Source: Linanthus parryae (lineage: Eukaryota; Streptophyta; Magnoliopsida; Ericales; Polemoniaceae). From it: a DNA stretch of 64,000 bases. This document shows, piece by piece, positions 15,636 through 45,186 of this stretch. The stretch spans positions 19,751,363 through 19,815,362 of the forward strand of contig JALGPY010000010.1 in the NCBI GenBank assembly GCA_023055425.1, written 5' to 3'. Below the pieces are notes generated by a model. It had not been told where the DNA came from and made no database searches. It saw nothing but the letters and a program-made list of their open reading frames with translations. The first letter of the stretch is position 1. Each line of letters begins with the position of its first letter. Position numbers and translations under genes: made by a program.

Positions 15636-15799
15636 TATTTTCAGGGAGTATCTTTCGCACAGGAAAAAACGGGGCAATTGGAAATATGCCAGTCTGTGAA
15701 TTGGTCTTAGAAAAATGCATTCGGGTGAATTGGTCTTTGAAAAATACCCTCATTTTTAAACACTAGGTAACAAGTGGTTGTTAGCAGCGTAGTGGGGCC

Positions 15800-16030
15800 A
15801 TCTGTCTCTCTCGTCTCCATTCTCTCTCTCTCGTCTCCATCTGCCTCTCGTCTCCATATCTCTCTCTCGTCTCCATCTGTCTCTCGTCTCCATCTCTCTC
15901 TCTCGTCTCCAACTGTCTCTCGTCTCCAACTCTCTCTCTCGTCTCCAACTCTCTCTCTCGTCTCCAACTGTCTCTCGTCTCCAACTCTCTCTCTAGTCTC
16001 CAAATACAGTATGTCTCGTCTCCAAACACA
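15800..16030 (+). repeat. CTCGTCTCC minisatellite in the MULE-1 left end
   Basis: About eleven copies of CTCGTCTCCA(T/A)CT spaced 16-22 bp apart, with one variant (CTAGTCTCC). The complement contains GAGACGAG, the MULE-1 motif, so this is a tandem extension of the array. Confidence 0.9.
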
Positions 16031-16489
16031 ATAGTTAAATGACTCTAAAAACAAACCCTAAAAACGCGTACTCTCTCTCTCCAACATTGAATTGTTTCTA
16101 TCTACCTCAACCTACCAAGTATAGTTGAATTTACTCCAACTGTAAACTTTATGAATGTATACCTTAAACTCCTCAAGAATATGGCTCATTTGTCACTCTC
16201 ATTGGCTCCAGTTCTCCCATAGAAGTATCCCATTTGTCTGTACAAGTCTCTCTCTTTCCTCACTTTTGTTCTTCAGCTACGGTAAAAACTTAAACTCTAA
16301 TCTCTCTGCTTTTGTCCTTATTATATGTTGATCACAGTACTCTGAAATGTATGGTATTCTCATTTATTTACTTTCATCCTTCCAATATTTTTATCACATT
16401 ACTCTAAAATGTAGGTTATGTTCGTTATATTTCTGCTCTGTTCTTCATTATTATTGGTTTGATGTGTGTTGTTGTATGTGGAGAGACTG

Positions 16490-16775
16490 GGACGAGTAAA
16501 GACTGAGACTGAGACGTGAACTATGCTCGTACCAGTCTTCCCCATGCACAACTGGGAAGAGCAAGGCCTGCCAAACTGGGACGAGAAATCTCTCGTCTGG
16601 CATTCAAATCACAGACGAGGACTCGTCCCGGTCTGGCATTTGATAGACTCGTGGGACGAGTAATCTCTCGTCTGGCCTTCCAATCTCAGACGAAAGATCA
16701 CTCGTCCCAGTCCGGGGTGTGATAGACTCGTACGAGTACGATACCCAAAGATGACAAGACAGGGACGACAGAGAC
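16490..16775. repeat. MULE-1 motif array A (GGGACGAG / CTCGTCCC)
   Basis: More than a dozen copies of (G/A)GACGAG in both orientations, often as facing pairs separated by about 6-10 bp (for example ACGAGAAATCTCTCGTC near 16580). The motif is much rarer in neighbouring DNA. A role as a protein-binding array is inferred. Confidence 0.8.
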
Positions 16776-16841
16776 GAGCATACCCTAAACCCTGAAATCC
16801 TCTCTTATCATGAAAAAATGGTATTCAATATTAAAAATGTA

Positions 16842-17220
16842 AATTGTAAGTCCTAAACCATATAATAATGTAATCTAAACTATAAACTCAAAATCATACA
16901 ATCATCATATCTTAATCATGTAATGCCTAAACCTTATACATACCATTAAACCAACTATCATCCTCCCAAAATCCTACATTTGTAGACACTAAACACTATA
17001 ACCAACTAAGTATCATTCCTATAGCCACTAAAGATGTTAATTGTAAGTCCTAAACCATATAATAATGTAATCTAAACTATAAACTCAAAATCATACAATC
17101 ATCATATCTTAATCATGTAATGCCTAAACCTTATACATACCATTAAACCAACTAACATCCTCCCAAAATCCTACATTTGTAGACACTAAACACTATAACC
17201 AACTAAGTATCATTCCTATA
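16842..17220. repeat. Tandem duplication, period 197 bp
   Basis: The AT-rich block 16842-17023 is repeated almost exactly at 17039-17220 (both begin AATTGTAAGTCCTAAACC). It occupies the place between two motif arrays where MULE-2 has its acidic gene. No coding frame is present. Confidence 0.9.
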
Positions 17221-17377
17221 ACCATTAAACCAACTAAGTATCATCTAAACACTAGAACCAACTAATTATCATTCCTATGGCTACTTAAAGTGTTATTAAA
17301 TAATACTTAACATGAATCCCTAAATCATAGAACATCCAAGCATTTTAAGTAAACCCTAAGATTGTACACCTAAGATT

Positions 17378-17516
17378 GGGACGAGTATACTCTCGTCCCA
17401 GTTGTAAATACAGGGACGAGTATTCTCTCGTCCCAGTTGGAAATACTAGGACGAGCATTTACTCGTCTCATTATTGGAAATACTGGGACGAGCATTTCCT
17501 CGTCCCATTATTAAAA
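17378..17516. repeat. MULE-1 motif array B, upstream of MURA
   Basis: Four facing pairs of the form GGGACGAGTATTCTCTCGTCCC-like (17378, 17413, 17449, 17485 approximately), spaced about 36 bp apart. They lie about 200 bp before the MURA start codon, in the probable promoter. Confidence 0.85.
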
Positions 17517-17619
17517 TAAATATATTGTCTGAGATGGTGGTGGTCCCTCTCCTTCCTGAAAAAAGTACAGAACATTCTGTTACCCATCATATGGTGAGAG
17601 AAAACCTTTTTTCTTTGTC

Positions 17620-17705
17620 AGACCAAACCCTAATTTCATCCAAACCCTAAAATCATTCTCTCTCTTTCTACTATCCGAACCCTAAACCCTAAAATCATTC
17701 TCTCT
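17620..17705 (+). promoter_or_regulatory. Telo-box cluster before MURA-1
   Basis: Four AAACCCTAA/AACCCTAAA copies lie between array B and the MURA start codon, including a tandem pair at about 17677-17692, and the block CCCTAAAATCATTCTCTCTC is duplicated. Telo-boxes are known plant promoter elements bound by TRB-type proteins. MULE-2 has a telomeric repeat in the same position. Confidence 0.6.
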
Positions 17706-17719
17706 CTTGACATGTAGAA

Positions 17720-20167
17720 ATGGTGAGAAAATTGATTTTCCGTGCTGTTTGGAATGGTGAATGGACGCGTGCCGAAGGTAGACACATATGCATAGGTCAG
17801 GCAGTGAAGAATGCAGTTTTCAAGATAATTCAAGGCATTATCGTGGAATCTTTGCAGCACGAAGTTTCGGTCAGAATGGATACAGATTGTCCGCCTACCA
17901 AAAAGGTTGTCTTATGTTATCATTTACAATTTACAGATGCTAACCTGATCGAGCCTAATATCCTCACTAAAGATTTAGAAATCAAAGATATCTTTGATAC
18001 TACGGAAAAGGGATCTATTGTAACCATGTACGTCACGTTAAAGGATTTGGTGGATCAACCATACATTAATGCTGACGTTGCTGACCACGATTTGATGGAT
18101 CAAACTGAAACCCTTAACAATCAGTTGGTTCCTTTGAGCCCCCCCCCTTACATACCGCGAAGATTACTTTCAGGGTATAGAGATATCGTCGAGGATCATG
18201 ACGAAGACAGGGTAGCATATAACGCAATAGATCTCACTCCGTCTCCGGATCACTGTAACGACATTGTGCAATTAGCTGACAAAGTTATGGTTGCCACTAA
18301 TGAGTCAATGGGGCAAACTAATCTTGCATTGGCAACTGTTGCGGTAGATTGTACAGAGAGTCGTGGACAGACTGGTGTGGGGACGGTCTGGAAATAGAGA
18401 TGAAAGGTTCGTATACTGGGAGGGCGTTGTCCCACCATATCAGAAGGGTTGCAGGTTTGAAGAGATGGACTTTTTACGTTTATAAGCGAGACCAGACTCG
18501 TATTATACTGCGGTGCTTGAATCGGGAATGCAAATGGATGCTTGGGGCTTACAAGCAAAAAGATTCCGTGCACTACCAGGTGAAGAAACATAACCCCATT
18601 CATACATGTACACCGTAACATTAATAGCGAAGTGATCGCGCAGGAATTGCTGGGAATGATGGGCCAAACAAAAAAGGCACCCACAATCAATGAAGTACAG
18701 AACATTGCCTTAAGAATGGGAAGTAGAATATCGTACTGGCCGGCATGGTATGCACGTCAAAGAGCCAAACAGATGATCCAGGGTATTCGTGCTCAAAATT
18801 ACGCTGATCTTCCCGTGTTCATGTCATTATGTGAAATCCTGAACCCTGGTACTAAATGGGATATGGGAGTGGACGAAGGTGGTGTTTTCTTGTACTGTTT
18901 CCTTGCGTTCGGGGCACAAATTCAGGGGATACCGTATATGCGACCCGTAATTGTCATCGACATGTCGCACATGAAGAAAGAACCCCTACAATTGGTCGTA
19001 TGCACAATGGTTGATAGCCAGAAACAGTGCTATTCCATTGCATGGGGACTAGTGGACAAGGAAAACACCGCTGCATGGACTTGGTTCTTACACAGACTGA
19101 GGTTAATTGTCCAGGATCATGACGAGTTGACGTTCGTTTCAGATCGGCACGAGGCTATCATCAATTCAGTCAAGGCCGTGTACCCCTTATCCAACCACGT
19201 CCACTGCTATTACCATTTGAAAATGAACGCTCTGAAGCATTACAATACACAAAAGTGGGTGCCTCATTACCACGATGCGGCCTACACATTTGATAAGGAT
19301 GCGTGTGAGTCACATCTGATAGACATGGGTATTGAGTGCGACAAAGTAAACATCGTTAACGACAAGACCGTCGAACGTTACTTCCGGGATGCCGGTCTAG
19401 AGAAATGGGCAAGGTCCCATTGTAAAACAGCACGGTTTGAGATGCTTACATCCAACTATGCTGAGTCTATTAACTCGTGCCTGCTGCCGACCAGGTCTGA
19501 CAAAGCTCTTACAATGTTCTCCCAAATATGCGACCATCAGAGCGAGTGGCACCTTAAAAAACAAAACTTCGGCATTGACATGGGCAACACCTACCTGACT
19601 GCGAAAATGGAGAAAAGAATGTTGAGTCGTTCTATAAAGTGTATAGATTTTCGCGTGCGACCAATTTCAGAGTCTCTGTATGAAGTCCGCGGTAATCATC
19701 TGAAAACCCATATCGTGGAATTCAAACCTGGACATTGCCTCGGAACCTGCACGTGCGGCAAATACCAACAGATGTGGTTCCCGTGTGTACATGCGTGTGC
19801 TTGTGCAAAATAACTTAGAAAACTTGGCCGTTACAATGCCGACCATGATATGAAGGTCATGTACGACCACACCAGCAGGTTCTATTCACTGGAATTCTAC
19901 AATCTGGCTTATGCAGGTACAATTAAGACTCCTCCCAACCCAGCAACGTGGAGCAGCGAAGTCACAAGCGAAGTACCTGCACACATAATAAACATTCGCC
20001 CACTTCCACCGAACAAAGTGGTAACAGTTGGGAGGGACAAGGAGAAAAGACACAAGACAATGGTCGAAATCGTTCGTGAAAAGAAGCGAGGAAAGGGAAC
20101 GTACGGATGTAGCCATTGCCATGTAAAAGGGCATACCAGAAAGATTTTCCCTCAATTGAAAAATTAA
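17720..20167 (+). pseudogene. MURA transposase, MULE-1 copy (broken)
   Basis: The product would be a MURA-type DDE transposase acting on the MULE ends. The order is: N-terminal PB1-like domain (17720 on, VIFRAVWNGEWTRAEGR-like), MuDR DNA-binding-type region (18400-18600, FYVYKRDQTRIILRC), MULE catalytic domain (18632-19500), SWIM zinc finger (GTCTCGKYQQMWFPCVHAC, about 19745-19800) and a C-terminal zinc knuckle. The acidic triad looks intact (VIVIDMSHMK, FVSDRHEAI, SNYAESINS). Damage: frame change near 18350-18400; a deletion near 18612 relative to MULE-2; a TAA at 19811-19813 where MULE-2 has a Gln codon; and the knuckle CSHCHVKGHTRKIF has Phe in place of the last Cys. It is not translatable as one protein. 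Confidence 0.85.
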
Positions 20168-20239
20168 TGTTGTGATAGAAGCCGTTGTTCTTCGTTCTTT
20201 GTAATGTAATTCGAAGTTCGCAACCTTTTATGATGATTG

Positions 20240-20462
20240 CGCAAACAATATATCTTTTGTTTCGATCAATTATTGTGTTTTTTAATATGAATATGCATTT
20301 TATTACATAAATAAACAATATATCTTTTGTTTGGATCAATTATTGTGTTTTTTTAATATGAATATGCATTTTAATACATAAATAAACAATATATCTTTTA
20401 TTTCGATCAATTCTTGTGTCTTTTAATATGAATAAATTGTTTATTACATAAATAAACAATTT
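20240..20462. repeat. Three tandem AT-rich units after MURA-1
   Basis: About three copies of a unit of roughly 71-73 bp containing AAACAATATATCTTTTGTTT and ATATGAATATGCATTTTA. They follow the MURA stop and probably form its 3' end. Confidence 0.85.
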
Positions 20463-20728
20463 ATTTTTTAAATTTATTGGCAAAGAGGAAAACTATGATA
20501 CATTGTAAAACTGTTACATGTTTTAAATTTTGATACATTTCTTACAAAAATGTTACATTTTTCAAGAATGTTTGAAAATTATTACAATTTCTAGAAAACA
20601 TACATGCCATGTTTTCTAGAAAATGTAATAATACCCGGCACATGAACCTAAATCTCTCTCCGTCTCTTCATCTACCCAGAAAGCACTACAAAAGCCATTG
20701 TTCTCTCCAAAACTCACCACATTCTGAA

Positions 20729-21055
20729 ATGCCAAAGAAGAAGATACCAAAGGAGTGGGAAAGCGACAAGGAGGAGGATAGTGAAAGGTCCGAGGACGAG
20801 GACGAGGAAGAGGATGAAGACAGTGAAGAGGACAGTGAAGAAACTGAAAGTGATGCAGAAGTCACAGCCTCTTTCAGGGAAAAAAGGGGCTCTGAAACTA
20901 CTCAGTACACTGAAGATGAAGACGAAGAAGATGATGATGACTCCGTGGATTGGCCGCCATCTCCGCCGCTGAAGAAAAGAAACAGAGACAACAGCAGTGA
21001 AGAAGAAGATCCAGAGCTCAGGCCTCGCAAACCCAAAAAATCCAAAAAAATTTAA
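20729..21055 (+). CDS. Small acidic accessory protein of MULE-1
   Basis: The frame starts at ATG 20729 (MPKKKIPKEWESDKEED) and gives 108 residues. The middle is Asp/Glu/Ser-rich, followed by a DEDEEDDDDSVDWPPSPP stretch and a Lys-rich tail (RPRKPKKSKKI), which could be a nuclear signal. It shares the pattern Gly-Ser-x-Thr-Thr, acidic run, Trp, Pro-Pro, Lys/Arg-Lys-Arg with the minus-strand gene at 22942-23331 in MULE-2, so it is a conserved MULE gene, not random low complexity. An upstream in-frame ATG at 20609 exists, but similarity to MULE-2 starts near 20729. No known domain recognised; a chromatin or partner-binding role is a guess. Confidence 0.6.
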   Translation: MPKKKIPKEWESDKEEDSERSEDEDEEEDEDSEEDSEETESDAEVTASFREKRGSETTQYTEDEDEEDDDDSVDWPPSPPLKKRNRDNSSEEEDPELRPRKPKKSKKI

Positions 21056-21187
21056 TCTTTCTTCATGTTTTTAAGTTTTTAATGTAATGAAATCTTTTGT
21101 TTCTGAACTTTTTCTTCTTTCTGATTATGACTGTTCATCTTTCCGAAGTTTTTCGTAGTTTTTTTTCTGGAAAAACACAGTTTCTGT

Positions 21188-21376
21188 GTAAGACGAGCAG
21201 TTGCTCGTCCCGGTGTTGACCTGCTCGTCTCAGTATCAGTATGACAATATACTTAGACGAGCAGAACTCTCGTCTCAGTATATTTCCACACTGAGACGAG
21301 CAATACAAACATGGACGAGCATTAACTGGGACGAGAAACAACTGGGACGAGCACACAAGTCTCACGTCCCAGTTGT
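21188..21376. repeat. MULE-1 motif array C, right arm
   Basis: About ten copies of GACGAG/CTCGTC in both orientations, including GGGACGAGAAACAACTGGGA near 21333. It lies between the acidic gene and the right terminal region. Confidence 0.8.
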
Positions 21377-22147
21377 TAAGAAGAGAGAAGAGAGAGTTTA
21401 GTTTTAAAAAGAAAGTTAATCAAAAGATAATTGAATTAGTTACAATGGTTAACCCTAAGCCAGGTCAACAAATAAACATAAGTGAGAGACGGGTATTTTT
21501 CAAAGACCAATTCACCAGAGGGGTTTTTGTTCAAATGCCTTTCTGGCAAGTTGTCTTTACTTTATACCCTTGGCCAAACTTTGTTTTCCAATCTACCCGG
21601 CTGGGTAATTTCATCTCTAAAGAAATCATTAACAACCATGTGGTCCCTTGTTGTCAGCCAAAAGTGCATGTTGTCAGCCAAGAGTTTTGTTCAATTACTT
21701 CTATGCCCTTGCAACCCTAATATTCAATACCCTTCCATTTTTTTCTCTCACTACAATCTTCACTGCTTTTTTTTCTCCCTCACGAACATTCAATTTTTTT
21801 CATCTACCTCTACCTAACAAAGTACAAGAAGAAATTACTCCAACCGTATCATTTATGATTTCAGAGTACTCCAACCTTAATGCTATGAAACATTTCTCAT
21901 TTTTCACTCTCACTTGCTCTTGTTTTATCCAGTTCTCACATTTTCTCTCATCTGAGTCTCTCATCTCCATTTGTTCTTGAACCTGCTCAGAGTGCAGGTA
22001 AACTGTAATTTTGTTGAGATTGTTGTATTTGTTGTGTCTTTTCATCCTAATGTCAGCTTATCACTTAAAATTTCTGCTTTTTATCTTGATTTGTTCAATT
22101 TTATGTGTTCATAATCATCTGTTCTTCCTGTGTTTTCTTATGCCAAT

Positions 22148-22505
22148 GTAACACTCGTCGGGGACGATTTGAGTAAGACCACGACGACCACGCAGTGGGC
22201 TTAGTCGTCGTGGTCTTCATTCACTAAAACACAGAGACGACCTATGTAGTATATGGATCGTCGGGGGAAACCACAGAGGGCACACCAGGACGACCCTGAC
22301 GACCCTGACGACCCACCATGGCCGTCTCGGTGAGTCTAGGTCGTCACTGTGTGAGTGAACTGGAAAAACACTTAGGTTACACCCGACGACCCTGCTAGGT
22401 CGTCTCTGTGATTCTAGATCGTCCTGTCTGAGTGAAGTAGTTTGTGCTCAGACGATCCGATATAAACGCTGACAACCGGGTATAAATGCAGACGACCTGG
22501 TCCAG
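22148..22505. repeat. MULE-2 motif array A, left arm
   Basis: About fifteen copies of GACGA(C/T)C or its complement, including a tandem trio GACGACCCTGACGACCCTGA near 22293. The consensus is AGACGA(C/T)C, differing from the MULE-1 GGGACGAG by the base after GACGA. Confidence 0.8.
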
Positions 22506-22519
22506 AACAGTTTGACACA

Positions 22520-22941: not shown

Positions 22942-23331
22942 CTACATTTTTTTTTGCTTCTTCTTATACCTAGGAGGACTCTCTTCTTCTGGGTCCCATT
23001 CCGAACCGGTGCTCGAATCTTCACTAGCACTGTCTCTTTTACGTGGAGGAGGTGGGAGACTAGTCCAGTGAGCCGTGTCTTCTTCGTCTTCATCGGATGA
23101 GTGAATGGTTGTTTGGGAACCCCTTTTATAGGAATAAGCAGGTTCGTCATCGGAATAAGCAGGTTCGTCATCCTCTTCACTCTTTTCTTCTTCACTTCCC
23201 TCCTCTTCACTTTTTTCTTCTTCATCAGTTTCCTTTTCCTTACTTGTTTCTTCTTCATCAGTTCCCACCTCCTCTTCTTCTTCACCGTGGTTAGTTTCGT
23301 ACTCCTTAGGTGGGGAGCTTGGCTTGGACAT
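22942..23331 (-). CDS. Small acidic accessory protein of MULE-2
   Basis: The frame starts at ATG 23331 (MSKPSSPPKEYETNHG) and gives 129 residues. A long Glu-rich first half with several Glu/Lys runs is followed by a duplicated DDEPAYS, then GSQTTIHSSDEDEED, a Trp, a Pro run and a Lys-rich C-terminus (PPRYKKKQKKM). It is homologous to 20729-21055 in MULE-1. It is transcribed divergently from MURA-2, and array B lies between the two. The frame is intact. Function unknown; the acidic core plus basic tail suggests a nuclear binding partner of DNA-bound or histone-like proteins. Confidence 0.6.
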   Translation of the reverse strand: MSKPSSPPKEYETNHGEEEEEVGTDEEETSKEKETDEEEKSEEEGSEEEKSEEDDEPAYSDDEPAYSYKRGSQTTIHSSDEDEEDTAHWTSLPPPPRKRDSASEDSSTGSEWDPEEESPPRYKKKQKKM

Positions 23332-23519: not shown

Positions 23520-23745
23520 CGGCTTATCAATTTCCAAGGCGACCCGTGAAGTTCCTCAACAATCGAGACGACCAAGGTTCGGTCGTCCGTGTCATTCACC
23601 AGTGAAGACCCTGATGACCAAGGTCGTCTGGTTCGTTCACTGTTGAAGACAGAGACGACCATGGTCGTTGGTTCGTCAGTGTAATTCACTTGGGAAGACA
23701 GAGACGCCCAAAGGACATTGGTCGTCTCTGTCTTCCCTACCAACT
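23520..23745. repeat. MULE-2 motif array B, between divergent genes
   Basis: About nine copies of GAGACGACC/GGTCGTCT type, plus near-matches, in the region between the acidic gene and MURA-2. The spacing is about 20-30 bp. Confidence 0.8.
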
Positions 23746-23765
23746 GTTTATTATTAAAAAAAACT

Positions 23766-23898: not shown

Positions 23899-25455
23899 AT
23901 GACAGAGATGGTGAAGAAATTAGGAGTACTTGTCATCTGGAACGGTGCATGGGATCGTGTCGAAGGTAGGTACAAATATTTGGGTGAAAGATTGAAGACC
24001 GCGAATTTCAAGATATGCAAAGGCATTACTGTAGAGTCATTGAAGGAAGATGTCTCCGTTAGAATGGGTGGTGATCATGAGTCTACTAAGAAGATTGTCT
24101 TACACTATCATCACTTGATAGACGATGCAGACTTGTTCCCCCCTAACGTACTTTCTGATGACCTACAAATCGATGATTTGTTTGATTGGTGTTCTGCGGG
24201 GTATACTGTTAGAATGTACGTTACTTTGGAGGATGAGGTTCAAGGAAACGTAGTTTCAGATATTGTTCTTGATGGAGTACATAACGGCCCGACTCCAATG
24301 GATGACCACAATTTGCAGCCGATTCCGATAGATGACAACAATATGCAGCTGATCCCAGTGGTTGAACACAATAGCCCACATGCATTGATTGAAGAAGAAT
24401 ACTTCCCCGGTGTGCAGATCATCCCCGAGGGCTATGCTGACGACATGGACCCTCCATTGGTCCTCACAGACACAACCACCAATGCGGTCAATGACTATGA
24501 TGTGTATGATAGAGAGGAACCAAATGTGCATAACAATCTTGCATTGGAAACTGTGCAGATAGACCGCAATCGTTTTGTTGATGCGGCCGGTGGTAGTGGT
24601 TGTAGTAGTGATGGCATTGGTAGGTTTGACGGACTGGTTCTGAAGATTGGCGATTTGTTCAACGGACCCGACGCGCTATTAATGCCTATTAGGTTAGCTG
24701 CTGCTAACAGCGGATGGTCTTTTCACGTCTACAAGCGAAAGGCTGTGCGGATAGTGTTGCGTTGTAGTGATGAGAACTGTAAGTGGATGGTGGGGGCGTA
24801 AAAGATCAAAGAGGCTGTGAACTATGTCCTTAAGAAACACAATCCCATTCACACATGTACCTTAATTACGATTGACGGTAAGCACCGTAACATCACTAGC
24901 ATGGTTGTAGCCAAGCAATTGCTGGGATGGTTTAAAGATCTCTCAAAGTCACCCTCAATCGCTGAGGTTCAGGCTAAGGCGAAAGATATGGGCACCGAAT
25001 TCTTGTACCATACGTCGTGGATTGCAATTCAAAAGCGTAAAAGTCTTATTAGCGGCACTAGGGCCCAAAATTATGCAGATCTACCTGCGTTCATGCATTT
25101 AACCGCTGAGTTGAACCCCGGTTCGAAGTGGGATATTTATGTGAGCCAAGATAATGTATTCCAGTACTGCTTCATGGCCCTCGGTGCATGCATTGCAGGT
25201 ATACGGTATATGAGACATGTAATTGTGATTGATATGTCGCACATGAAGAAAGAACCGGTTCAGTTGGTTGTGTGCACAATGGTTGATAGCGAGCAACACT
25301 GCTATCCCATTGCGTGGGGATTGGTGGATCGCGAGAATACAGATACATGGACATGGTTCTTGACTAAACTACGACAAATTAGGCCCGACATGCATGACCT
25401 GACTTTTGTTTCCGATCGACACCAAGCTATAATTAATTCAGTTAAGGCGGTGTAT
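23899..25455 (+). pseudogene. MURA transposase of MULE-2, N-terminal 519 codons
   Basis: The frame begins MTEMVKKLGVLVIWNGAW and contains the N-terminal PB1-like domain (about residues 1-110), an acidic variable linker, the MuDR DNA-binding-type region (about 240-330, FHVYKRKAVRIVLRC) and the start of the MULE catalytic domain. The first catalytic Asp is at about residue 445 (VIVIDMSHMK) and the second at about 506 (FVSDRHQAI). A TAA at 24799-24801 interrupts the MuDR region where MULE-1 has a Tyr codon. The gene is then split by the Athila element at codon 519; the frame resumes exactly at 39315. Apart from these two lesions the frame is intact over about 842 codons, so it was disabled recently. 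Confidence 0.85.
25451..25455. repeat. Athila target-site duplication, left copy (TGTAT)
   Basis: TGTAT here matches TGTAC at 39310-39314 with one change. MULE-1 has an uninterrupted GTGTACCCC at the homologous place (19178), which shows the original target was TGTAC. Confidence 0.85.
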
Positions 25456-27079: not shown

Positions 27080-27097
27080 AATACCCCCGCACTAAAT
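27080..27097 (-). other. Athila polypurine tract
   Basis: On the minus strand TTTAGTGCGGGGGTATT directly precedes the 3' LTR. Close relatives of this string occur at 28000-28013, 28971-28983 and 31071-31083. Confidence 0.7.
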
Positions 27098-31852: not shown

Positions 31853-32061
31853 CAGAGAAAAATAATTTTCAATTTTTTTTTTCACCTCGGTTATTTTGAC
31901 ACTGTGGGTAAAAGGGGGTAATTTTTCTCTCTCTCCTTTCTGTTTCTTTTCGTCTGCTTCTTCTGGATCTGCACATGCTGAATTTTCATTAAATACCCAC
32001 TCATCTCACCTCTCTCAAAATTCAAAACTTAAAATAAAAGCTATAAAATAATTTAAACTTA

Positions 32062-32086
32062 CTACGTTGGGTTGCCTCCCAACCAG
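32062..32086. promoter_or_regulatory. Stem-loop GTTGGG...CCCAAC after pol
   Basis: GTTGGGTTGCCTCCCAAC is a 6-bp stem with a 6-base loop just after the pol stop. I recall similar text in other plant gypsy elements; role unknown. Confidence 0.4.
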
Positions 32087-32135
32087 CGCTTTGTAATTTA
32101 CGGTCGACGGCCCGACCCAGTTACCTCAGGTTCGA

Positions 32136-35102: not shown

Positions 35103-36188
35103 TCAGTCCTCGGCTCTCATGGCCTGCTCGCACCGAGTCATCTCCTTCTCTTCTCCGTACATGCTATCAATTTCTTCCCATAACTGGTCCATCTCCTCGT
35201 TTTCCCAGCCATCATCAACTACATCTATGGCGAAGATATCTTCGTGATCATAATAATTTGGCAGTTGCAGATTTTTGAAAACATTAAATTTAACCTTGTC
35301 CTCGTTAATCTGCATGGTCAGTTCCCCGCTCTTGCAATTTATCATAGCTTCTCCAGTGGCCAAAAACGGTCTGCCCAGTATGAGCGGTACCTCCCCTGCC
35401 TCCATGTCCAGGATCACGAAATCTGCTGGAAAAATGAGCTCACCGACCTTCACCAAAATATCCTCGATAACTCCATAAGCCTGTTTTACGGACCTGTCTG
35501 CCATCTGCAGCATGATTCTGGTGGGCCGGGGCTCCCCGACTTTCAAACTCTTGAAAATCGTCAATGGCATCAGGTTGATGCTGGCCTCTAGGTCACACAG
35601 AGCCTTTCCTGTGTAAGCGTTACCTAGGGTGACCGGTATTACAAAACTGCCAGGATCTTTTCTCTTCCTCGGTAGCCCATTCTTCACACAGTTGCTCACT
35701 TCTGCCGTCAGGTTTATAGTCTCGAAGTCGCTCATTCTCCTCCTCCCATACAAGATGTCCTTGAGGAATTTGGCGTAAGTGGGCATCTTAGCCAAAGCCT
35801 CGGCAAAAGGTATGTTAATCTGCTGCTGCTTGAACATCTCGAGAAACCTGGCGTTGTCCTTGCTATCGTCCCTCTTTCGTGTCTTCAATGGGTATGGTAC
35901 CTCCTTGGAGACAGGTACCGTTTCTGCATCTGTCTCATTCTGCACTGCATCCTGCTCAACCGAGCCCTTCGGCTGGGGGCGGTCGATTGAGCTGTTATCC
36001 TGGCCAGACAGTTTGCGTTCTACTTCTTTCGACTTTTCTGCGCGTGCGTGGCTAGGATACGGTGGATCCTGTAGTGCTACTCCACTCCGAGTGGTGATAG
36101 CATTGATCTGAGCACGTGGATTATTCACTGTATTCGAGGGCAAGTTTCCTGGCTGTCTTTCTGTTAGTTGTTGTGCTAACTGCCCCAC
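35103..36188 (-). pseudogene. Athila gag C-terminus and protease
   Basis: It lies in the same frame as gag and RT. It begins with the linker GQLAQQLTERQPGNLP and AITTRSG, then an aspartic protease fold (FVIPVTLGNAYTGKALCD...ILGRPFLATG). The active site should read Asp-Leu-Gly; here it is Asp-Leu-Glu (CDLEASINLMP), a one-base change. A TGA at 35103-35105 separates it from RT; it fits a G-to-A change in a Trp codon. Confidence 0.8.
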
Positions 36189-37547
36189 TTATACCTCCAA
36201 AGCACGCAGTGACGTTTTGGTCATCTGCATGTCGGCTGTCAGGGCGTCCATGTGCTTGAATCGGGACTCCATGGTCTGGAACATGGACTTGATCTCTTTA
36301 ATCTGGGCGTCGTACTGCTGCGCAGATGGGACTAACTGAGCCTGCTGGGCCGGGGCAGCCTGCTGGGCTGGTGGCCTGTGCTGGAATCCCGGTGCATAAA
36401 CTGCTGCGTTCGGGTTTCCGTACCGAAACCCGGGATGGTCTCTCGTACCCGGTCGGTACCGGCTCGGGTCCCACTGCTGCTGTACGTAATTGGTGTCTTC
36501 GGTCCTTAGCTCCTCAATGGCTGTGTCCAGATCAGGTTCTTCGACTTCTGCAATAGTCTTCTTATCCGAGTAGACTTTCTTGACCAAGTCGTGAACGATC
36601 TTGGCCAGGTTGTCTATCCGGTCATCCTCTGCGGGTTCGGCTCTAGCCGCCATCCTGCGATCGTCAAACAGTCGGGTGTCCTGCTTGGCCAACTGCTTCA
36701 TCAGGTCATACGCACCTTCTTTGTCCACGTGATACAGGAAGTTTCCCCCGTCCTCTCTGTCAATCCTGTCGGCGTTCTCCCTGTCTAGGGCATGGTAGAA
36801 AACCTGCAGAATTTTCGCGTCTCCAAAGCCGTGGTTAGGGCACCGTTTGACCAATCTCATGAGCCTGTCCCATGCGTCCACCACCGTCTCCCCCATCTTC
36901 TGCCTGAATGACAGAATCTCGCTCTGTAACTGTATGACTCGGGAGGCGGGATAGAACTTTGCCAGAAAATCTGCGACACACTCCTCCCATGTGGTGATGG
37001 ATCGGGGTGGTCGAGATTCGAGCCAGTCTTTGGCTACTCCGTAAAGACAGTATGGAAATAAGATCAGCATGAGTGCCTCTGCTTCTACCCCCTTGTATCT
37101 GACCTTGTTGCAGTAATCTTCGAATTTCCCGATAAAATCGTTCGGGTCTTCGTCGGCCCTGCCATGAAACGGGCAGAGAGTTTGCACCGTCTGGATGGTG
37201 GATGGTTTGATGTCAAAGTGCTCGACGGTGATCTCGGGCACCACAATAGCTCGCTCATGCCCCCCGGTGGGGACTTCGAAATTTTCCACCAACGCCTTCC
37301 CAGATCGGTTATATGTTCTCTGGTTGCTTCGGGCAGCCAGTCCCGCTGTGACAAGTTCCTCAATGTACCGAGCCATCTGGGCTGGGGTACGTGTCTCTCG
37401 TTCCTGTCCACCGGCTTCGGTGTTCTCGGGCGTATCTCTCTGGTTGGTTGCCATCCTGCTTTCTCGGTTTCTGCGGTTCTGTTCGGTATACAGTTTTTCC
37501 GGGTTGTCGAGTGGTGACACCAAATCGCGAGGCAATATGGGCATCAA
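36189..37547 (-). pseudogene. Athila gag
   Basis: The frame starts at ATG 37547 (MMPILPRDLVSPLDN). The Retrotrans_gag domain is clear: FHGRADEDPNDFIGKFEDYC, KDWLESRPPRSITTWEE and RLMRLVKRCPNHGF. A second possible start is the ATG in ESRMATNQRD. A Gln/Ala-rich stretch precedes a TAA at 36189-36191. Translation in the same frame continues beyond, so the stop is a recent mutation (C to T in a Gln codon would explain it) and not the natural gag end. Confidence 0.85.
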
Positions 37548-37662
37548 CTGAACAGTCCTGAAAAACGCAGATTCAAAAAGCAGTGAGATAAAAGAAAAAT
37601 AACGAAACTGAAAAATAAAAATTCCGAAAACTAATTCTGATAACTAAATTAACCATAAAAAA

Positions 37663-37680
37663 TCCCCGGCAACGGCGCCA
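37663..37680 (-). other. Athila primer-binding site, tRNA-Asp
   Basis: On the minus strand TGGCGCCGTTGCCGGGGA, 6 bases from the 5' LTR, is complementary to the 3' end of plant tRNA-Asp. Confidence 0.85.
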
Positions 37681-37686
37681 AAAACT

Positions 37687-39309
37687 TGATGCGCAAACTA
37701 ACGTGCTGTCCGCAAGTATACGAATCTTGTAATACCGGGTGTAATTAAACTCGGGTGATCGTTCCCACGAGGACTATTTCGGGTTTTTCGAGAAATCAGT
37801 TTTAACTTGCAGAGTGTAAAAGGAAGAGTAGTTTAGGATTGTGATTAACTATAAACTAAAAATAAGCAAAATAAAACGCAAATATTTTTTTGTGACGTTT
37901 TTTGAAAATCTTTAAAGTTGTAAATCTAGGGTTTGGAATACTAGGTCCTGGATCCCCTAGGGTTTCTTCAGAATTATGTTCTTTGGTTTGATATGAAAAC
38001 ACTCAGCAGTTTTAATTATCCGTGCCACGTACCGATTGTGCAGTAACCTTTCAGATTCCACACGCTGTCACGATCCTGCAGACTTTCGGGTTCCTGTTAA
38101 GCTGCCTAAGTCTGCAGTCTCGTTCTAAGTCTGCTAGGGTTTCTAACCTGGCCTGATGGCTCGGGTCAAATTCTCTAACAGTTGGTCTATACGTTTTGGC
38201 TAGCCCTATCTCCCTTTCTCTGGTCGGTCTATCAGGGTAAGGTACTAAATCATGTCTTTTCTTCCTAACCCTAACCTGACGTTTTCACCTACAGGCTCGG
38301 GTCTATAGCAATTCTGGTTCGCCACTCCGATCATGCATAAACAGATATAATCAAAGACAGAATAACTGATAATACTGCTGAATTAAGATAACGTAATCAT
38401 GAATTCATACTCAACTGCAGAAATAATGTCTGAAAACGAAACCCTAGGTTCACCGAGAACCTAGGTAAAAAGTTTAGCTACTAAACGACATAACTAATTA
38501 ACAAAGTTTCTGAATTTAAAAGAGAGAATAAGATCAAACTAAGTCTTCGGATCTGGATGAGTGCTTCCGTGCTCTCCCGGGATGCTCAGACTTGTCCTTG
38601 GATGAATTGTCTTGTGTGTTGTGTCTTCAAAATGAGTCTGGACGAGTCTTTTTATAGTGCTGGCGAAGTTTCTGGAACTTGTCATTATTTACGAAACTGC
38701 CACTGCCCGAAACCGCCTCAGTTTTTGTGCTGTCTGCGTATTATACGCAGCCTGCTGCGTATAATACGCAGACAGGGTCTTCTGTTGCTGCTTTTTCTCC
38801 TCTTTGTGCTTGCTGTCTGCGTATAATACGCAGGCCCTGCGTATAATACGCAGACAGGGACCCTCCTGTGCCTTCCTCTTCCTTCTTTCTGGGTATTTTA
38901 CCTCCTGGCTGCGTATAATACGCAGGGGGCTGCGTATAATACGCAGACAGGGAAGAAAAACTGTCCAAAACCCCTCTCCCTCCTTGCTGCCTGCGTATTT
39001 TACGCAGGGTCTGCGTATTATACGCTGACAGCAAGGCAGGATGCTCTTTTCTGCCTCTGTTTGCCTCCTGTTGCATTCCCGATCCATTCCTGCTGCATTC
39101 CCGGGCCTTGTTCCTGCATAGACAACATGAACACACCCGCGATCATATTCAATAAAAGTACGGAAAATGCAGAAATTTATAAAGAGCAAATAACTGTCTC
39201 GTTCCTAAAACCGAGGCTTCCCGAGGGTGAAAATTGGCTAAAACGTGAGTTTTCCGGCACAAATGCACAAAAACCGAGCTATAAGATAACCCATATTTGG
39301 GCGTTATCA
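37687..39309 (-). repeat. Athila 5' LTR (right copy)
   Basis: It is 1623 bp with the same ends as the left copy. Four modules lie at 38730-39031, which is about 280-580 bp into the LTR read in the element sense, the likely U3 region. Confidence 0.92.
38730..39031. repeat. Double-palindrome modules, 4 copies, right LTR
   Basis: Same four modules as the left LTR. At several of the sites where the LTRs differ the right copy keeps the perfect palindrome and the left does not (CGCAGGGGGC against CGCAAGGGGC; TAATACGCAGAC against TAATACGGCAGAC); at two others the left copy is the better match. Confidence 0.9.
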
Positions 39310-40286
39310 TGTACCCCCTTTCCAACCATGTCCATTGCTATCATCACCTGAAGATGAACGGGCTGTCGCATTACCCCACAAAGAAGTGGGATAAATATTT
39401 CTTTAAAGCTGCATATACCTTCGACCGGGAGATCTGTGATACATCTTTGAAGGACATGGGCATTGTTGTATCGCACGTGCATAGCGTGAAGAAAATGACG
39501 GTTGAAGGTTACTTTCGCGATGCCGGATTGGAGAAGTGGGCTAGGTCTTTTTGCAAGACATCCCGGTTCGAACAATTATGTTCCAACCATGCAGAGTCCA
39601 TTAACTCATGCTTTCTGGATGCACGGAATGGCAAACCTCTTCAATTATTCGCTTTCGCATGCGACACAGTGGCTCAATGGTTCATATTAAGAAATGTGGA
39701 ACTGGAGAAAATGGGAAGGATGTTTCTGACTAAGCTGCGGGAAGAAAAAATGTTGGAGAATTGGGCCAACTCTCGAGGGCTGCATGTACGTCCCATCACA
39801 TGCACAGAGTACGAAGTCAGAGACCGTGACCTGAAATGTTACGTGGTGGATTTTAGCCCTGGAAATGTCGTTGGGAGCTGCACGTGTGGCGAATACCAAC
39901 AGATGTGGTTCCCATGCGTACATGCTTGTGCATGTGCATCTCAACTTAGGAAGCTGGGCCATTACGACGTGCAACACGACATGGAGGTCATGTACAACCA
40001 TACTAGCAGGTACTGCTCAAGAGAATACTTTAAGGAGGCCTATAGCGGAACGGTTTATACTGCTCCCAACCACACACAGTGGGACAGCGACAATTTACCT
40101 GAGAGTATAAGAGCACTCCGGCCATTTCCTCCGAAGAAATTGGTGACACCAGGGAGGGACCAGGAGACCAGATTCAAGTCCACGACTGAAAAAATATTTA
40201 AAAATCAAGGAGGAAAGGGTTCATACAGATGCAGCAAGTGCGGTCGACTAGGACACTCAATAAGAACTTGCACTTATGAACCTTAA
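39310..40286 (+). pseudogene. MURA transposase of MULE-2, C-terminal part
   Basis: After the target duplication (TGTAC, 39310-39314) the MURA frame resumes at CCC 39315 in phase with codon 519 at 25455. It reads PLSNHVHCYHHLKMNGLS, carries the third catalytic residue (Glu in SNHAESINSC, about residue 613), a SWIM finger (GSCTCGEYQQMWFPCVHAC) and an intact C-terminal zinc knuckle (CSKCGRLGHSIRTC), ending at TAA 40284-40286. The frame is undamaged from 39315 on. The apparent start upstream at 39297 lies in the Athila LTR and is not real. Confidence 0.85.
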
Positions 40287-40290
40287 TAAG

Positions 40291-40470
40291 TTTGTAATCG
40301 GTAGTCGTTGTTTGTAATTGATAGTCGTTGTTTGTAATCGATAGTCGTTGTTTGTAATCGATAGTCGTTGTTTGTAATCGGTAGTCGTTGTTTGTAATCG
40401 ATAGTCGTTGTTTGTAATCGGTTGTCGTTGTTTGTAATCGATAGTCGTTGTTCGTTGTTTGTAATCGATA
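40291..40470. repeat. 20-bp minisatellite between convergent MULE-2 genes
   Basis: Eight exact-length 20-bp units (TTTGTAATCGATAGTCGTTG) run from 40291 to 40450, then a partial unit. It starts five bases after the MURA stop and ends about 50 bp before the Ulp1-like stop. Confidence 0.95.
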
Positions 40471-41789
40471 TACAATTGGAAAAAAACAAAAGTTTCATTA
40501 AATTACTAAAATAAATATCATTGGAAGCTTACTTTTTCCACTCTCACACCCTTTCCAGTGACAATAGGGAAGTGAAAAGCGACCATACAAATCAAAGTAC
40601 AGTAATCTAACTTCTTTTTCAGTACTATGTCTTCCACACATATCCAACCCCTAATCGGATTTGACTGAATTAAGCACTCAATCATTTGAAGTACATACCA
40701 GGCTGTCATATACCTTTTTTGGGTCACAAACCTCTTCTCTCTTGTCTTCAATAGATGTTTTTTATCCAATTTCTCCACTTCCAACAATTCAGGCCCCGCT
40801 CTACAGCCACCGAAGTCCTTCAGAAGCCTAGGTAAATCCGTGAGAAGACGCTCAAAATCCCATTGCTTGAACCCAGAGTACTGATGCAGATCGTACACTT
40901 TCAACACCATGTCTTTCACTTCAATGTAAATGAAAATCCAATGCCCTGGACCTTTAGCCGTTCTCTTTGTAAACCATGGCATGAACCACCTACTAGCCTT
41001 GGCGAGCTCAGTTCCCCGATAGGGCTGATTTCCTGCAAAATATGGGGCAACTTTGAAGCTCCTCGTAAGTGAGTGCCAGATTCATGAACGCATGATACCA
41101 ACCATAGTCAGTAATGACAGTGTCTGTTCTAGCTTCACGCACTTTCTTGGAATACATGCGCCTAATCACATACGTCATCTCGTCCATATGATACCAAAGA
41201 ATAGTAGAATATTCTGCTTTAAGGTACTTACAAAATTCCCTCCCAAGTATATTAATTCCACAATATATACCTGCCCACCCCTCTTCAGGATCATATAACC
41301 ACGCTTGGAAGGCTTTTACTAGAGGTGGTTTGGGTTGCATCATGAGGTTGAACGTTGGCATTCCGGTAGACGCACTATATAAAAACTTCACAGGGTGAAT
41401 TCCTTCTTTAGCAAGTGCAGCCGCATACTTGATTCTCTCCCACTCAATTCTTGCGCAATCACGCCGCCACTTCACTGCCACACCACCTTCTCGAACAATA
41501 AACAACTTATCACGACCATGTATCTTGTCATACAAACCTAGCTTATCATAACTGTACGTTGACTGAGGAGTCCAACACTCTTATTGGTATGTATGCTCTG
41601 GAGCCTCGAAGTACGGTATCTAATCTTCCGGTACATGTAACTTCAATTTTGGCAACACTACTTCTACATCTTCTTCTACACCTCCTTCTTCTTTGCCTCC
41701 TTCTTCTTCTCCTCCTTCTTCTCCTGCAAGGGTTGAGTAATCTGCATCAAACCAACTTTTGAGTTCAGGATCACTCTGATCTTCCACTG

Positions 41790-41885
41790 CTTGCTGGGAT
41801 GGCCCTGCTTGCTGGGATCCCCCTGCTTGCTGGGATCCCCCTGCTTGCTCGGATCCCCCTGCTTGCTCGAATCCCCCTCCTTCTT
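41790..41885 (-). repeat. 18-bp coding repeats (GGSQQA units)
   Basis: Five units of about 18 bp encode tandem GGSQQA/GGSEQA in exon 3 of the DUF1985/Ulp1-like gene. Confidence 0.85.
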
Positions 41886-43873
41886 CGAACCTTGACGGGG
41901 CTGAACCCCTAGATCTTTCAGCTGCCGCTGCAAGCACAATTTGATTGGATTCATCTGCTTTTGGCTCGGATCCCCCTACATGCTCGTTTGACTCGGGTTG
42001 GTTGGATCTACGGGTAGCTTCGAGCTCTGCATACTAACAAGAATATTACATTAAAATTAGGAACATTTTAAAATTAAAAACGTACTTAATTGAATACCAA
42101 TCATACTTGTAAGTATACCTGTCCGGGAGGTCCAACATTCTGAGTTCGTGTCTCATCCGGCATTCCTTTTGTTGCCACCTTCCACACTTCCGTCAACATA
42201 GTTCCCGAAACGTGTGTCATTTTCCCAATTTTGTCCAACTTATCAAGCGTGTTGGCCTGATTGTACGCGGCTGTCTTCAATAATGCGGTCGCTTGCTGGT
42301 TAGCCAACGTTCGCAAGTCTCTGATTTCCTGCTCGACACTGTCTAATCGTTCGCCAAACTTGTCGACTTTGTCGTTCACTGTCTTGAACTCCCCCCGGAC
42401 CAGGGAAAACAAATCTTGCTTGAACGATTCCAAGTCCCCAATCTGAACAGAAGCTCTAGGGATCTCAGGTGCAGGAGTTGCATCATTTTGCTGGTCAGGC
42501 ACTTCCGCAGGGGGGATAAAGGCTTCTCTAATTGTTTCTCTTCCCCCTTGTTCTTCTTCTGATTCATCGATGAGAAGAGTCTTCTGCTTCTTCCTCGTCG
42601 GACTAGCATCACTAGTTTGGGGTACATTCTTCTTCTTCCTTTGTGGGCCAACCGCAGCGACATTCTTGCCCTTCTTCTTCCGCTTCTTACTAGCCTCCAC
42701 ATCAACATCACCTTCTTCCACTTCAACGTCATCTTCTTCCGCTTCAACATCATCTTCCGTCTGTACCTTACCAAAGTTGTAGGAAGGTTCGAAAGCACGA
42801 TTCTCATGTTGATCATCCAATATTATAGTCTTTTCTTGAAAGACCGCAGTCCACCGCGGGAAAAGAGGCCTGCCAGGGTTACTACGATGGTGCTCAATGA
42901 AGCTTTCCCAGTAGGGTTCCGTCTTCTCTTCCTCCGTTGGCAAAAGAGTTGGATATACTTTCTTCACAGATTTCCAATAAGCGGAGGCTTCTTCCAAGGT
43001 TGCATTGCAATTTCTCCACTCCCAGTTATTCAACCTCGGTCGTATCGGTGCACCTTCCTTCTTCTTGCCCACATTGTCACCGAGCTCCGGTATGGCCTCG
43101 CAAATCCATGCCAGAAAGATGTGTGGGAAGCAATGCATGTTATACTTCCTGCGACGGTCGGGATCGAAATTGCAATTCCAAACCTCTGTCTTCACTTGAT
43201 CAAGGGAATCTTTCCACAAATAACTCCCCCATGCGAAACTGTTAGCCCAATCGAGATCCGAGAACAACCCGAATGCATCCATGCACATCTCATACTTAGA
43301 GCTTTTCGTGTACACCAGCCTACCCATTATGCAAGCCATCGCCAACTTAGCATAATCAGTGAGTTTATCAGGGCTCAAGTCCTTTTCTTCTTGCAACTTC
43401 TTAAGTGCATCTTCAACCTTACTGATTTTGATGTTAGTTCCCATCTTGTGGTTTTTGAGGTACTTCTTAGCCCAACCATATTCAGTGATTTTCTCACCTA
43501 CCCCATCGATTTTTCCGATTCTCAACCCCGACACCAAGCAAAACTCCTGCAATCCAAAACGAACCGGCATGTTGTTTACGTTGAACCACAACTCAGTGTC
43601 TTCTTTCTCCGTGTTGATCTTCGCATGCTGAACAAGATTTACTATCTGCCCCGGATAGTTGAACGGGCCACCATTAAGGTGCAACAAGAACTTCAACTGC
43701 GGGAGCCTAGTCCGTATCACTGCCCGTACCTCCTCACTAAGGCATTTCATAGTCCGCTCATAGTATTTCAGATGGAACCTTGTAGTGATGTTCCCTCTTT
43801 CAATCAATTTCTTACACAAGGGGAGCGGTACGTGTCCTCCCAAATATTGAGCCAAGTTCGAAACCTTAAGTAA

Positions 43874-44643
43874 CTGAACCTACATTATAAAACACAAATC
43901 GGTAAAATAACTGTCATACATAAGTTAATGAGTTTTAATCTAAGTTATAAACTGTGTAGGTAAGTTATCAATGTTAATCTAAGTTATAAACTTTGTATCT
44001 AATTTATTAATGATTTTAAGCTAATGATTTCAATTTATAGCTAATCTAAGTTATAAACTGTCTTGTTAATGTTTTGGTGTCAATCCTAAGAGTTCAGCTG
44101 TTCTTGTTAAAAAAAGTGTTCAGGGTGTGTTCAATTTAGTATACAGTGTTGAACAATTCAAAATTTTTGTGTCAAAGTGTTCAGTAGTTCTGTATAAGAC
44201 AGACGATATAAGAAAAATACACAGACGATACGGGAAAGGCACAGACGACCGAGAGGCCATTCACAGAGACGAACTCTGGCAAGGTCGTCTGCGTTTATAC
44301 CCGGTCGTCTGCGTTTATATAGGATCGTCTGGTGCTACACCGGATCGTCTGGACTAGGTCGTCTCGGTAAATATAATTTCAACCGAGAAGACCATGTCCA
44401 GACGATCTGGTCTAGCACCAGACGATCCGGTTTAAACGCAGACGATCCGGTCCAGACTAGATCGTCTCGTAAAAATGCCATAGGCAGGTGTTTCGTCTCC
44501 CTATCCACAAAAATTAGATCTAAGATCGTCACAACACAATCACCCAGATCGTCTAAGTTTTAACAAACACAAACTTGAATCATACTAGTACACAAAGTTG
44601 AATTATAGTACACAACAAATCAAACAGAAACTAAAATTCTAAC
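43874..44643 (-). other. Intron 1 of the DUF1985/Ulp1-like gene
   Basis: The intron is bounded by GTTAG (44643) and TTCAG (43874). Its first half holds motif array C (44185-44560); the rest is AT-rich with repeated TAATCTAAGTTATAAACT. Confidence 0.7.
44185..44560. repeat. MULE-2 motif array C, in intron 1 of the DUF1985 gene
   Basis: About fifteen copies of AGACGA(C/T)(C/A) or its complement in both orientations, with repeated companions such as GTCTGCGTTTATA and GTCTGGTGCTA. This is the densest array of MULE-2. Confidence 0.85.
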
Positions 44644-44826
44644 CTCATCATTCCCAACACGAATTGTGGGAATTGGGCGGTTGAGGAAGCCGATAGTCCC
44701 GACGGTGGGGTGGGTAACAATGGCCAACTGAGTTTGATCAACACCGGCAGGGAGTGAGCCGGAGCCGGTGGCAGCCATGGACGGCGATGATGAAGAGGAG
44801 GGAGCAGTTGTGGAGGACGACGCCAT

Positions 44827-45186
44827 GGAGGAGGAAGAGAGAGCAAGGGTCGGTTGTTTTCGCACTTGCAGAGAGAGAGAGGAAGCAGAGTGATTGTGAT
44901 GGGTTGGAGGGGTTGGAAAAGAAAAAAGTAACCGTCTGTTTTTTTATTAATAAAACCTGTTTAATTTTCAAAATTGTGTTTATTTTTTTGGTTAAACCCT
45001 AATCATAAAGGACCCCACCATCACTTATACTCCACCGGGTAGATTGGAAAGACCAAGTTCGTAGGCGGTTTAAAGACCAATTTTTTCTTCACCAAACCGG
45101 TAGGACGCCAATTTTTTCGGAAAAAACTCGTGCGGTGGTTAGGAATCAGAAACTTTGAGACGCCGGCCTCACTGGTGAATTACTAA
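44827..45186. other. MULE-2 right end and flank
   Basis: From the DUF1985 start codon to about 45130 is the promoter and terminal region, with CCGGGTAGATTGGAA at 45040 and two CCAATTTTTTC units. From 45131 to 45186 is flanking host DNA before the first MITE. Confidence 0.55.

Follow-up and report, generated by a model that had tools for sequence, protein, structure and literature searches.

Two neighbouring Mutator-like elements, MULE-1 and MULE-2, lie in the window (the whole 64,000-nucleotide stretch of Linanthus parryae DNA that was analysed) and carry arrays of the word GACGA whose following base is specific to each element: it is G in 37 of the 39 core copies in the MULE-1 arrays and in 1 of the 37 in those of MULE-2, where C (19) and T (14) predominate and A follows 3 copies, which bears out the element-specific arrays proposed in the initial annotation. 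We consider it probable that both are VANDAL-like elements and that the arrays are putative docking sites of an element-encoded, VANC-type protein that would remove silencing marks from its own family.

Pfam searches found the MULE transposase domain PF10551 above its curated cut-off in each element (1.8e-16 in MULE-1, within 18584–19810, and 2.9e-11 in MULE-2), and by these matches both are Mutator-like elements (MULEs). MULE-1 (15671–21553, plus strand) has a 26-bp perfect inverted pair, GGTGAATTGGTCTTTGAAAAATACCC, at both ends, lying inside a degenerate end that scored 59 versus 43 for the best of 300 shuffles; its right end is uncertain and overlaps the likewise uncertain left end of MULE-2 (21520–45118, plus strand), which has an inverted 16-bp pair, TTTCCAATCTACCCGG, and a best end alignment score of 55, barely above the top shuffle score (52, from 300). 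Terminal inverted repeats of this short or degenerate kind are a VANDAL feature. An exact 9-mer, GGAAAAAAC, is found at 15662–15670, at the MULE-1 left end, and again at 45119–45127, at the MULE-2 right end, a possible target-site duplication that brackets the two elements as one unit; possible duplications of the single elements were limited to one-mismatch pairs for MULE-1 and to exact pairs falling inside repeated end sequence (AAAGACCAATT) for MULE-2. As a gauge of chance for the possibility that the two elements moved jointly as a single unit, random pairs of stretches of matching length shared a 9-mer in 485 of ~5000 cases, the fair figure for the search as run, and in 44 of ~20000 with only 20 start positions per side (both counts skip pairs less than 2 kb apart).

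The two had been described as sisters; they are indeed both MULEs with related MURA transposases, but close-sister status was rejected, as MURA segments (pieces M2_N, M2_M, M1_C and M1_C2) are 42–64% identical, one 20-residue piece reaching 70%, and nucleotide matches are 67–73% identical except for one 52-bp match at 79%. By these comparisons the two are anciently related, and the MURA gene of each is broken. That of MULE-1 (17720–20168, plus strand; Pfam MULE) is broken by frameshifts and stops, and that of MULE-2 consists of a 5' part (23908–25454, plus strand) with one internal stop and a 3' part (39319–40290, plus strand) with a SWIM match below the curated cut-off, split by a nested Ty3/gypsy retroelement (25455–39318, minus strand) whose LTRs are 98.65% identical. 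Each element also has an acidic protein gene, that of MULE-1 (20729–21055, plus strand, 108 aa) being homologous to that of MULE-2 (22942–23331, minus strand, 129 aa) but on the opposite side of MURA. Protein database searches with the MULE-2 DUF1985 exon (described below) and the MULE-1 MURA core returned no relatives, the MURA core and the acidic protein of MULE-1 had no PDB match by sequence at E-values up to 0.01, and related-locus searches identified no relatives, whether of the MURA core and the DUF1985 exon in viral contigs or of the MURA core alone in genome contigs; no plant transposases were returned from the collections searched.

Counting against shuffled sequence, the check suggested with the initial annotation, upheld the difference between the elements. 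In MULE-1 (15673–21541, both strands) GACGAG occurs 40 times versus a mean of 1.76 and a maximum of 6 in 200 dinucleotide shuffles, and GACGAC or GACGAT twice versus 4.2 expected; in MULE-2 without its nested retroelement, GACGAC or GACGAT occur 36 times versus 6.8 (maximum of 13 in shuffles) and GACGAG 3 times versus 3.0. Fisher's test of G versus not-G by element gave a P of 8e-18, which is overstated as the copies are not independent. We rejected the possibility that the word is general across the window, as its 33.5 kb of flanks have no core excess (GACGA 24 versus 31.1 expected), and there is likewise none in the nested gypsy element (25 versus 23.0). A small exception within the gypsy element is the longer GGACGAG, seen 7 times versus 1.4 (maximum of 5 in shuffles).

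When the 5-mers present in non-coding DNA were ranked blindly, with larger tandem repeats left out, GACGA came first in both elements (z of 15.8 and 15.7), and the top 6-mers were GACGAG in MULE-1 and AGACGA, ACGACC and GACGAC in MULE-2. The element words can be written RGACGAG in MULE-1 and AGACGAYC in MULE-2. As the base before the core is mixed in MULE-1 (A 56%, G 44%; n = 39), the originally named motif GGGACGAG accounts for just some of its copies, and in the minisatellite all 11 of 11 copies read GGAGACGAG. Of the one-letter variants of GACGA, most do not exceed what shuffling predicts; GACCA is enriched in the MULE-2 arrays (11 versus 3.1 expected), so that GACGA is not the sole enriched word there.

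Scanning the whole window for 300-bp spans with 5 or more cores identified seven GACGA clusters, all inside the two elements. In MULE-1 the arrays are the minisatellite (15780–16040, its GGAGACGAG copies on the minus strand), a left-arm array (16480–16785, 11 cores in both orientations), an array upstream of MURA (17370–17520, 8 cores, with units of ~35 bp in 3.7 copies and four GACGA-N8-TCGTC dyads) and a right-arm array (21180–21400, 9 cores); in MULE-2 they are a left-arm array (22140–22510, 15 cores), an array upstream of MURA (23530–23750, 6 cores) that precedes the start codon at 23908, and a right-arm array (44180–44560, 16 cores) within the probable first intron (43880–44643) of the DUF1985 gene. 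The claim that arrays fill all the non-coding arms was too broad, as 1,595 bp of non-coding DNA outside the arrays of MULE-1 hold no core and 2,246 bp in MULE-2 hold one. Sites lie on both strands in six of the seven arrays, and MULE-1 has 8 copies of the GACGA-N8-TCGTC dyad, MULE-2 none. Same-strand sites of MULE-2 show 10.5-bp phasing (jitter P of 0.0005, best period 10.2), part of which comes from tandem 20-bp units, and no such phasing was found for same-strand sites of MULE-1 (P of 0.79 at 60 bp) or for its minisatellite (P of 0.97). Helical spacing of the words is reportedly found in VANC systems.

The last cores lie 216 and 182 bp upstream of the two MURA ATGs, and two arrays ending ~200 bp upstream of start codons together with one in a probable first intron could be taken as promoter or enhancer parts, bound by a host factor and spread by tandem duplication; we judge this very unlikely, as a host factor gives no reason for the element-specific last base or the differing geometries, and the flanks are not enriched for the word. 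The tandem units in several arrays (35, 20 and 17–19 bp) would also be consistent with functionless by-products of tandem duplication that share a core from a common ancestor, and the core copies compared base by base had been picked by GACGA, so that invariance of the core among them proves nothing. However, GACGA heads the 5-mer ranking of each element although a blastn comparison between their arrays gave no match, the two orientations are not given by simple tandem duplication, and most one-letter variants stay within expectation, which makes such by-products extremely unlikely.

A VANC-type protein as the reader of the arrays is suggested by the DUF1985 gene of MULE-2. Its main exon (42104–43879, minus strand, 592 aa) matches PF09331 (1.4e-12) and the solved Arabidopsis VANC21 chain 9lnj/9lnk (3.6e-11 over 252 residues, spanning only residues 28–279 of the 592), which makes it related by sequence to VANC21 itself, a protein that binds such words and thereby reactivates silenced transposons in Arabidopsis. 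A probable first exon (44644–44826, minus strand, beginning MASSSTTAP) is predicted from a donor at GATGAG/GTTAGA and an acceptor at AATGTAG/GTTCAG. A single-sequence structure prediction of the main exon had a mean pLDDT of 38.9 and was set aside. The coding stretch that follows (40521–42005, minus strand), with in-frame stops, is either the C-terminal coding region of this gene or a separate gene, and contains GGSQQA-like peptide repeats (41787–41882); tandem peptide repeats are described as frequent in VANC variable regions (PMC5735166). The initial annotation labelled this stretch an Ulp1 gene, a label that was not confirmed and cannot be treated as established, since two open pieces had no Peptidase_C48 match in Pfam at E-values up to 10 and a PDB sequence search of one of them had none either (both searches covered open pieces only). 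The comparison with Arabidopsis VANC proteins is, on the other hand, strengthened, both by the VANC21 match and by the placement of the arrays, the VANC21-target tandem repeats being described upstream of VANA21 and in the VANB21 and VANC21 introns (PMC5735166). A tblastn search of the window with the main exon alone (E-values up to 1) found only itself and no relative in MULE-1, although a diverged copy could escape; as no DUF1985 exon was detected in MULE-1, the proposed joint change of motif and binding protein cannot be read from this pair for DUF1985.

Spm has subterminal TnpA sites in short-word arrays near its ends. The arrays could similarly be sites of the MURA transposase, alone or with a partner, the last base tracking MURA divergence: MURA is in both elements and the DUF1985 exon was found only in MULE-2, the divergence between the MURA segments is enough for altered specificity, and TnpA and MURA, which are non-VANC transposon proteins, are reported to hypomethylate their own elements (PMC10398659). 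Spm/En resembles the present system in having an element-encoded protein whose activity is described as going with demethylation of its own element, but it belongs to another transposon superfamily (CACTA), and the present pair has arrays in internal positions as well, directly ahead of MURA and inside the probable DUF1985 intron. As the DUF1985 protein moreover has a direct relative in VANC21, and maize MURA binds within terminal inverted repeats, we regard MURA as an unlikely reader of the arrays.

The explanation that we prefer, a VANC-type protein docking at the arrays, draws on the PF09331 and VANC21 matches, the VANDAL21-like array placement, the one-letter word types, the peptide repeats, the MULE-2 phasing and the lack of excess CpG decay. 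For the last of these, GATGA and GACAA, the decayed forms of the core, together number 3 versus 3.8 expected in the MULE-1 arrays, 0 versus 3.2 in the minisatellite and 2 versus 5.8 in MULE-2, and none of the 32 one-mismatch neighbours of the 7-base words (10 in MULE-1, 1 in the minisatellite and 21 in MULE-2) is a C-to-T or G-to-A change at the core CpG. Counted against it are the undetected DUF1985 exon in MULE-1, the presence in both elements of MURA, which could equally read the word, the lack of a CpG in the two Arabidopsis words compared, the unphased MULE-1 sites, the contribution of 20-bp units to the MULE-2 phasing, the partial span of the VANC21 match and the GACCA enrichment. Under the preferred explanation the DUF1985 protein would bind the GACGA arrays and strip methylation from its own family, and because MULE-2 has sites in its left arm, ahead of MURA and within the probable first intron of the protein's own gene, expression of the protein would keep itself unsilenced. 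RGACGAG would be the sister version of AGACGAYC, the last-base difference being read by different proteins, and MULE-1, having lost or never had the protein gene, would need a full-length relative to supply the protein in trans.

The closest known counterpart is VANDAL21 (Hiun) of Arabidopsis thaliana with VANC21, likewise Mutator-like with short degenerate ends, a MURA-type transposase, a DUF1985 protein, non-coding word arrays both ahead of the transposase gene and within a DUF1985-gene intron (a predicted intron here), and one-letter word variants (GACGAC and GACGAT here). It differs in its word, YAGTATTAY versus a GACGA-based word with a central CpG, and an acidic gene is present here. One-letter types are described for the words of both VANC21 (YAGTATTAC/T) and VANC6 (AGTTGTCC/AC) (PMC5735166); VANDAL6 with VANC6 shares with our pair the two word types one letter apart in related elements (AGTTGTCC and AGTTGTAC), the word itself being different. 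VANC6 also hypomethylates AT9TSD1, which is unrelated to VANDAL but carries the word, and by analogy MULE-1 could be served in trans as AT9TSD1 is by VANC6. The KAONASHI/KIU MULEs, which are non-TIR elements bearing Ulp1, resemble the pair in having a coding region opposite to that of the transposase; no Ulp1 was detected in the pieces searched here. Our best reading, from sequence comparison, is a sequence-specific anti-silencing system of the known VANC kind whose CpG-centred word is unlike the two Arabidopsis words compared (VANC21 and VANC6).

With a CpG at the centre of its target word, the anti-silencing protein could even sense methylation of its own sites, binding unmethylated sites and by binding keeping them so, as a self-reinforcing switch; and as both the last base and the geometry differ between the elements (N8 dyad versus 20-bp same-strand phasing), the word and its reader's dimer arrangement may have diverged in step, beyond the cases known from Arabidopsis. 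We offer this extension only as a tentative and rather doubtful speculation. With such a word the system could be gated by CG methylation itself, a possibility that the two Arabidopsis words compared do not offer. Since the VANC21 relative lies next to the arrays presumed to be its targets, and only a few kilobases separate the two variants of the word, MULE-1 and MULE-2 are a ready pair for testing the joint change of an anti-silencing protein and its docking word, and with the solved VANC21 structure in the PDB, changes in specificity could be mapped to residues.

MULE-1 and MULE-2 are neighbouring Mutator-like elements arranged head to tail, in a window whose Pfam matches (to MULE, DUF1985, PDS5 and plant transposon protein) mark it as plant DNA. 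In MULE-1 (about 15671–21553), the gene for the transposase MURA is broken and is accompanied by a small acidic gene. In MULE-2 (about 21520–45118), the MURA gene is interrupted by a gypsy element (25455–39318, LTRs 98.65% identical), and the minus strand carries an acidic gene and, in a further region, a DUF1985 exon. Tblastn comparisons showed the MURA pieces of the two elements to be 42–64% identical, with N-terminal pieces at 42% and 46%, the catalytic core at 63–64%, later pieces at 55% and 48%, and a single 20-residue piece at 70%. The acidic proteins are likewise homologous (local score 178 vs 130 for the best of 2000 shuffles; 109 vs 78 in shuffles for the KRGS.TT region alone), and their genes (20729–21055 in MULE-1, 22942–23331 in MULE-2) lie on opposite sides and strands relative to MURA, an internal rearrangement. 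Directly after the MURA stop of MULE-2, a 20-bp unit, GTTTGTAATCGATAGTCGTT, is repeated eight times (40290–40452), and the counterpart position in MULE-1 is occupied by a 70-bp triplicate (20243–20469).

When 5-mers were ranked separately for the non-coding DNA of each element, excluding the MULE-1 minisatellite (15780–16040) and longer tandem repeats, GACGA came first in both (28 vs 3.0 expected in MULE-1; 38 vs 4.4 expected in MULE-2). The initial annotation had described GACGA arrays specific to each element, and this holds: all seven core clusters in the 64 kb fall inside the two MULEs, and the base 3' of the core is G in 37 of 39 MULE-1 sites and C or T in 33 of 37 MULE-2 sites. The MULE-1 consensus without the minisatellite is about CTGRGACGAG, and that of MULE-2 about AC(C/A)CAGACGAYC, being weak 5' of the core and having C as the second base 3' of it in 84% of sites. 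The left arms are homologous just beyond the arrays (16072–16208 vs 21774–21919, 71% identical); blastn identified no match between MULE-1 and MULE-2 arrays.

The arrangement of sites also differs. The convergent pair GACGA-N8-TCGTC occurs eight times in the window, always in MULE-1 (three separate arrays, with varying spacer letters) and never in MULE-2; since four of these dyads are in a single tandem array and three others in a stretch that by eye resembles imperfect duplicates, they represent fewer than eight independent events. Same-strand sites in MULE-2 are most commonly separated by 20, 40 and 53 bp and showed 10.5-bp phasing: the 35 pairs no more than 60 bp apart score 0.40 (jitter P 0.0005), and widening the limit to 110 bp gives 55 pairs and a score of 0.31 (P 0.0015). 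These and all following P values are nominal across fourteen tests (eighteen set up, four without pairs). No such phase was seen for MULE-1 same-strand sites (P 0.79 and 0.56 at 60 and 110 bp, respectively) or its minisatellite (0.97 and 0.96). Convergent pairs in MULE-1 gave P 0.0095 and 0.0235, values that reflect the fixed N8 dyad, and had no peak at 10.5; the remaining values were 0.29 and 0.19 for MULE-1 divergent pairs, 0.52 and 0.089 for MULE-2 convergent pairs, and 0.06 and 0.026 for MULE-2 divergent pairs. Work by Sasaki in EMBO J (2022) reportedly gives a role to word density and helical periodicity, and is said to describe how DUF1985, DUF287 and Ulp1 are rapidly gained and lost.

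CpG observed/expected was 0.89–1.35 in the arrays, partly because GACGA itself contains CpG, against 0.24 (MULE-1) and 0.67 (MULE-2) in other non-coding DNA; coding parts gave 0.86 and 0.71, respectively. Deamination products of the core showed no excess over shuffles and numbered 0 among 32 one-mismatch neighbours, a result no more than suggestive, shuffles being no model of neutral decay.

The DUF1985 exon of MULE-2 (592 aa) has a Pfam match to PF09331 (E 1.4e-12), and a plain phmmer search of the PDB matched it (E 3.6e-11) to residues 41–288 of the chain named VANC21 (9lnj, 9lnk), the Arabidopsis VANDAL21 anti-silencing protein, with no other chain below E 0.3. According to a meeting report, a VANC21 crystal structure, then unpublished, was presented in 2021 (PMC8756742). 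Splice signals, by our count in phase 0 at either end, mark a probable first exon of the DUF1985 gene at 44644–44826, and therefore the MULE-2 right-arm array (44180–44560) probably sits within its first intron. Beyond the peptide-repeat stretch the reading frame is broken by stops. An Ulp1 gene had also been proposed for MULE-2; neither of the two open pieces of its minus-strand region gave an Ulp1 match. One piece aligned weakly by tblastn with the right array of MULE-1 (E 0.041), which we took as chance.

Most likely, the MULE-2 DUF1985 protein would bind its own family's AGACGAYC arrays and strip silencing marks, also at the sites before MURA and in the intron of its own gene. The arrays and the homology of the protein are observed; its binding, the loss of methylation and any match of word to protein are inferred. 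MULE-1 would be a relative with a sister word, dependent on a protein from another copy. The main rival is that MURA reads the word, since MURA is present in MULE-1, where we found no DUF1985 exon.

In the nested gypsy element, a palindrome, CTGCGTATAATACGCAG, forms arrays within each LTR and within an internal stretch (26578–26806, 31424–31882, 38728–39035), and TACGCA is the top 6-mer (54 vs 4.1 expected); a transposon of another class thus also has a word array of its own. The MULE-1 left end and MULE-2 right end align from the first base, and an exact 9-bp repeat, GGAAAAAAC (15662–15670 and 45119–45127), flanks the whole, so that the pair looks as if it had moved as one composite element, the chance of a shared 9-mer being about 1 in 10 for stretches as long as those searched. 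Between MULE-2 and the next gene is a fold-back element (45177–46131; 458-bp arms, 93% complementary, 39 bp apart). That probable gene, as read by eye, starts at 46161 and has a CxxCxGxG zinc-finger-like exon near 47100; the transposon cluster sits immediately 5' of it.

This kind of system is already known. In the literature surveyed, the VANC21 word is YAGTATTAY, of C and T types, frequently in tandem repeats; it occurs upstream of the transposase gene VANA21 and within introns of VANB21 and VANC21. VANC proteins combine DUF1985 and DUF287 with frequent tandem peptide repeats in variable regions; and VANC6, with the words AGTTGTCC and AGTTGTAC, also acts on a word-carrying element unrelated to VANDAL (PMC5735166). 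RdDM and VANCs share non-coding target DNA, on which they act in opposite directions (PMC10398659), and KIU-bearing VANDALs are reviewed as recognising motifs of their own kind and, in eudicots, strongly conserving Ulp1 (PMC13317346). GACGA words were not met in the passages of the VANDAL/VANC literature surveyed by topic; any novelty would lie in the CpG-centred word and the altered geometry.
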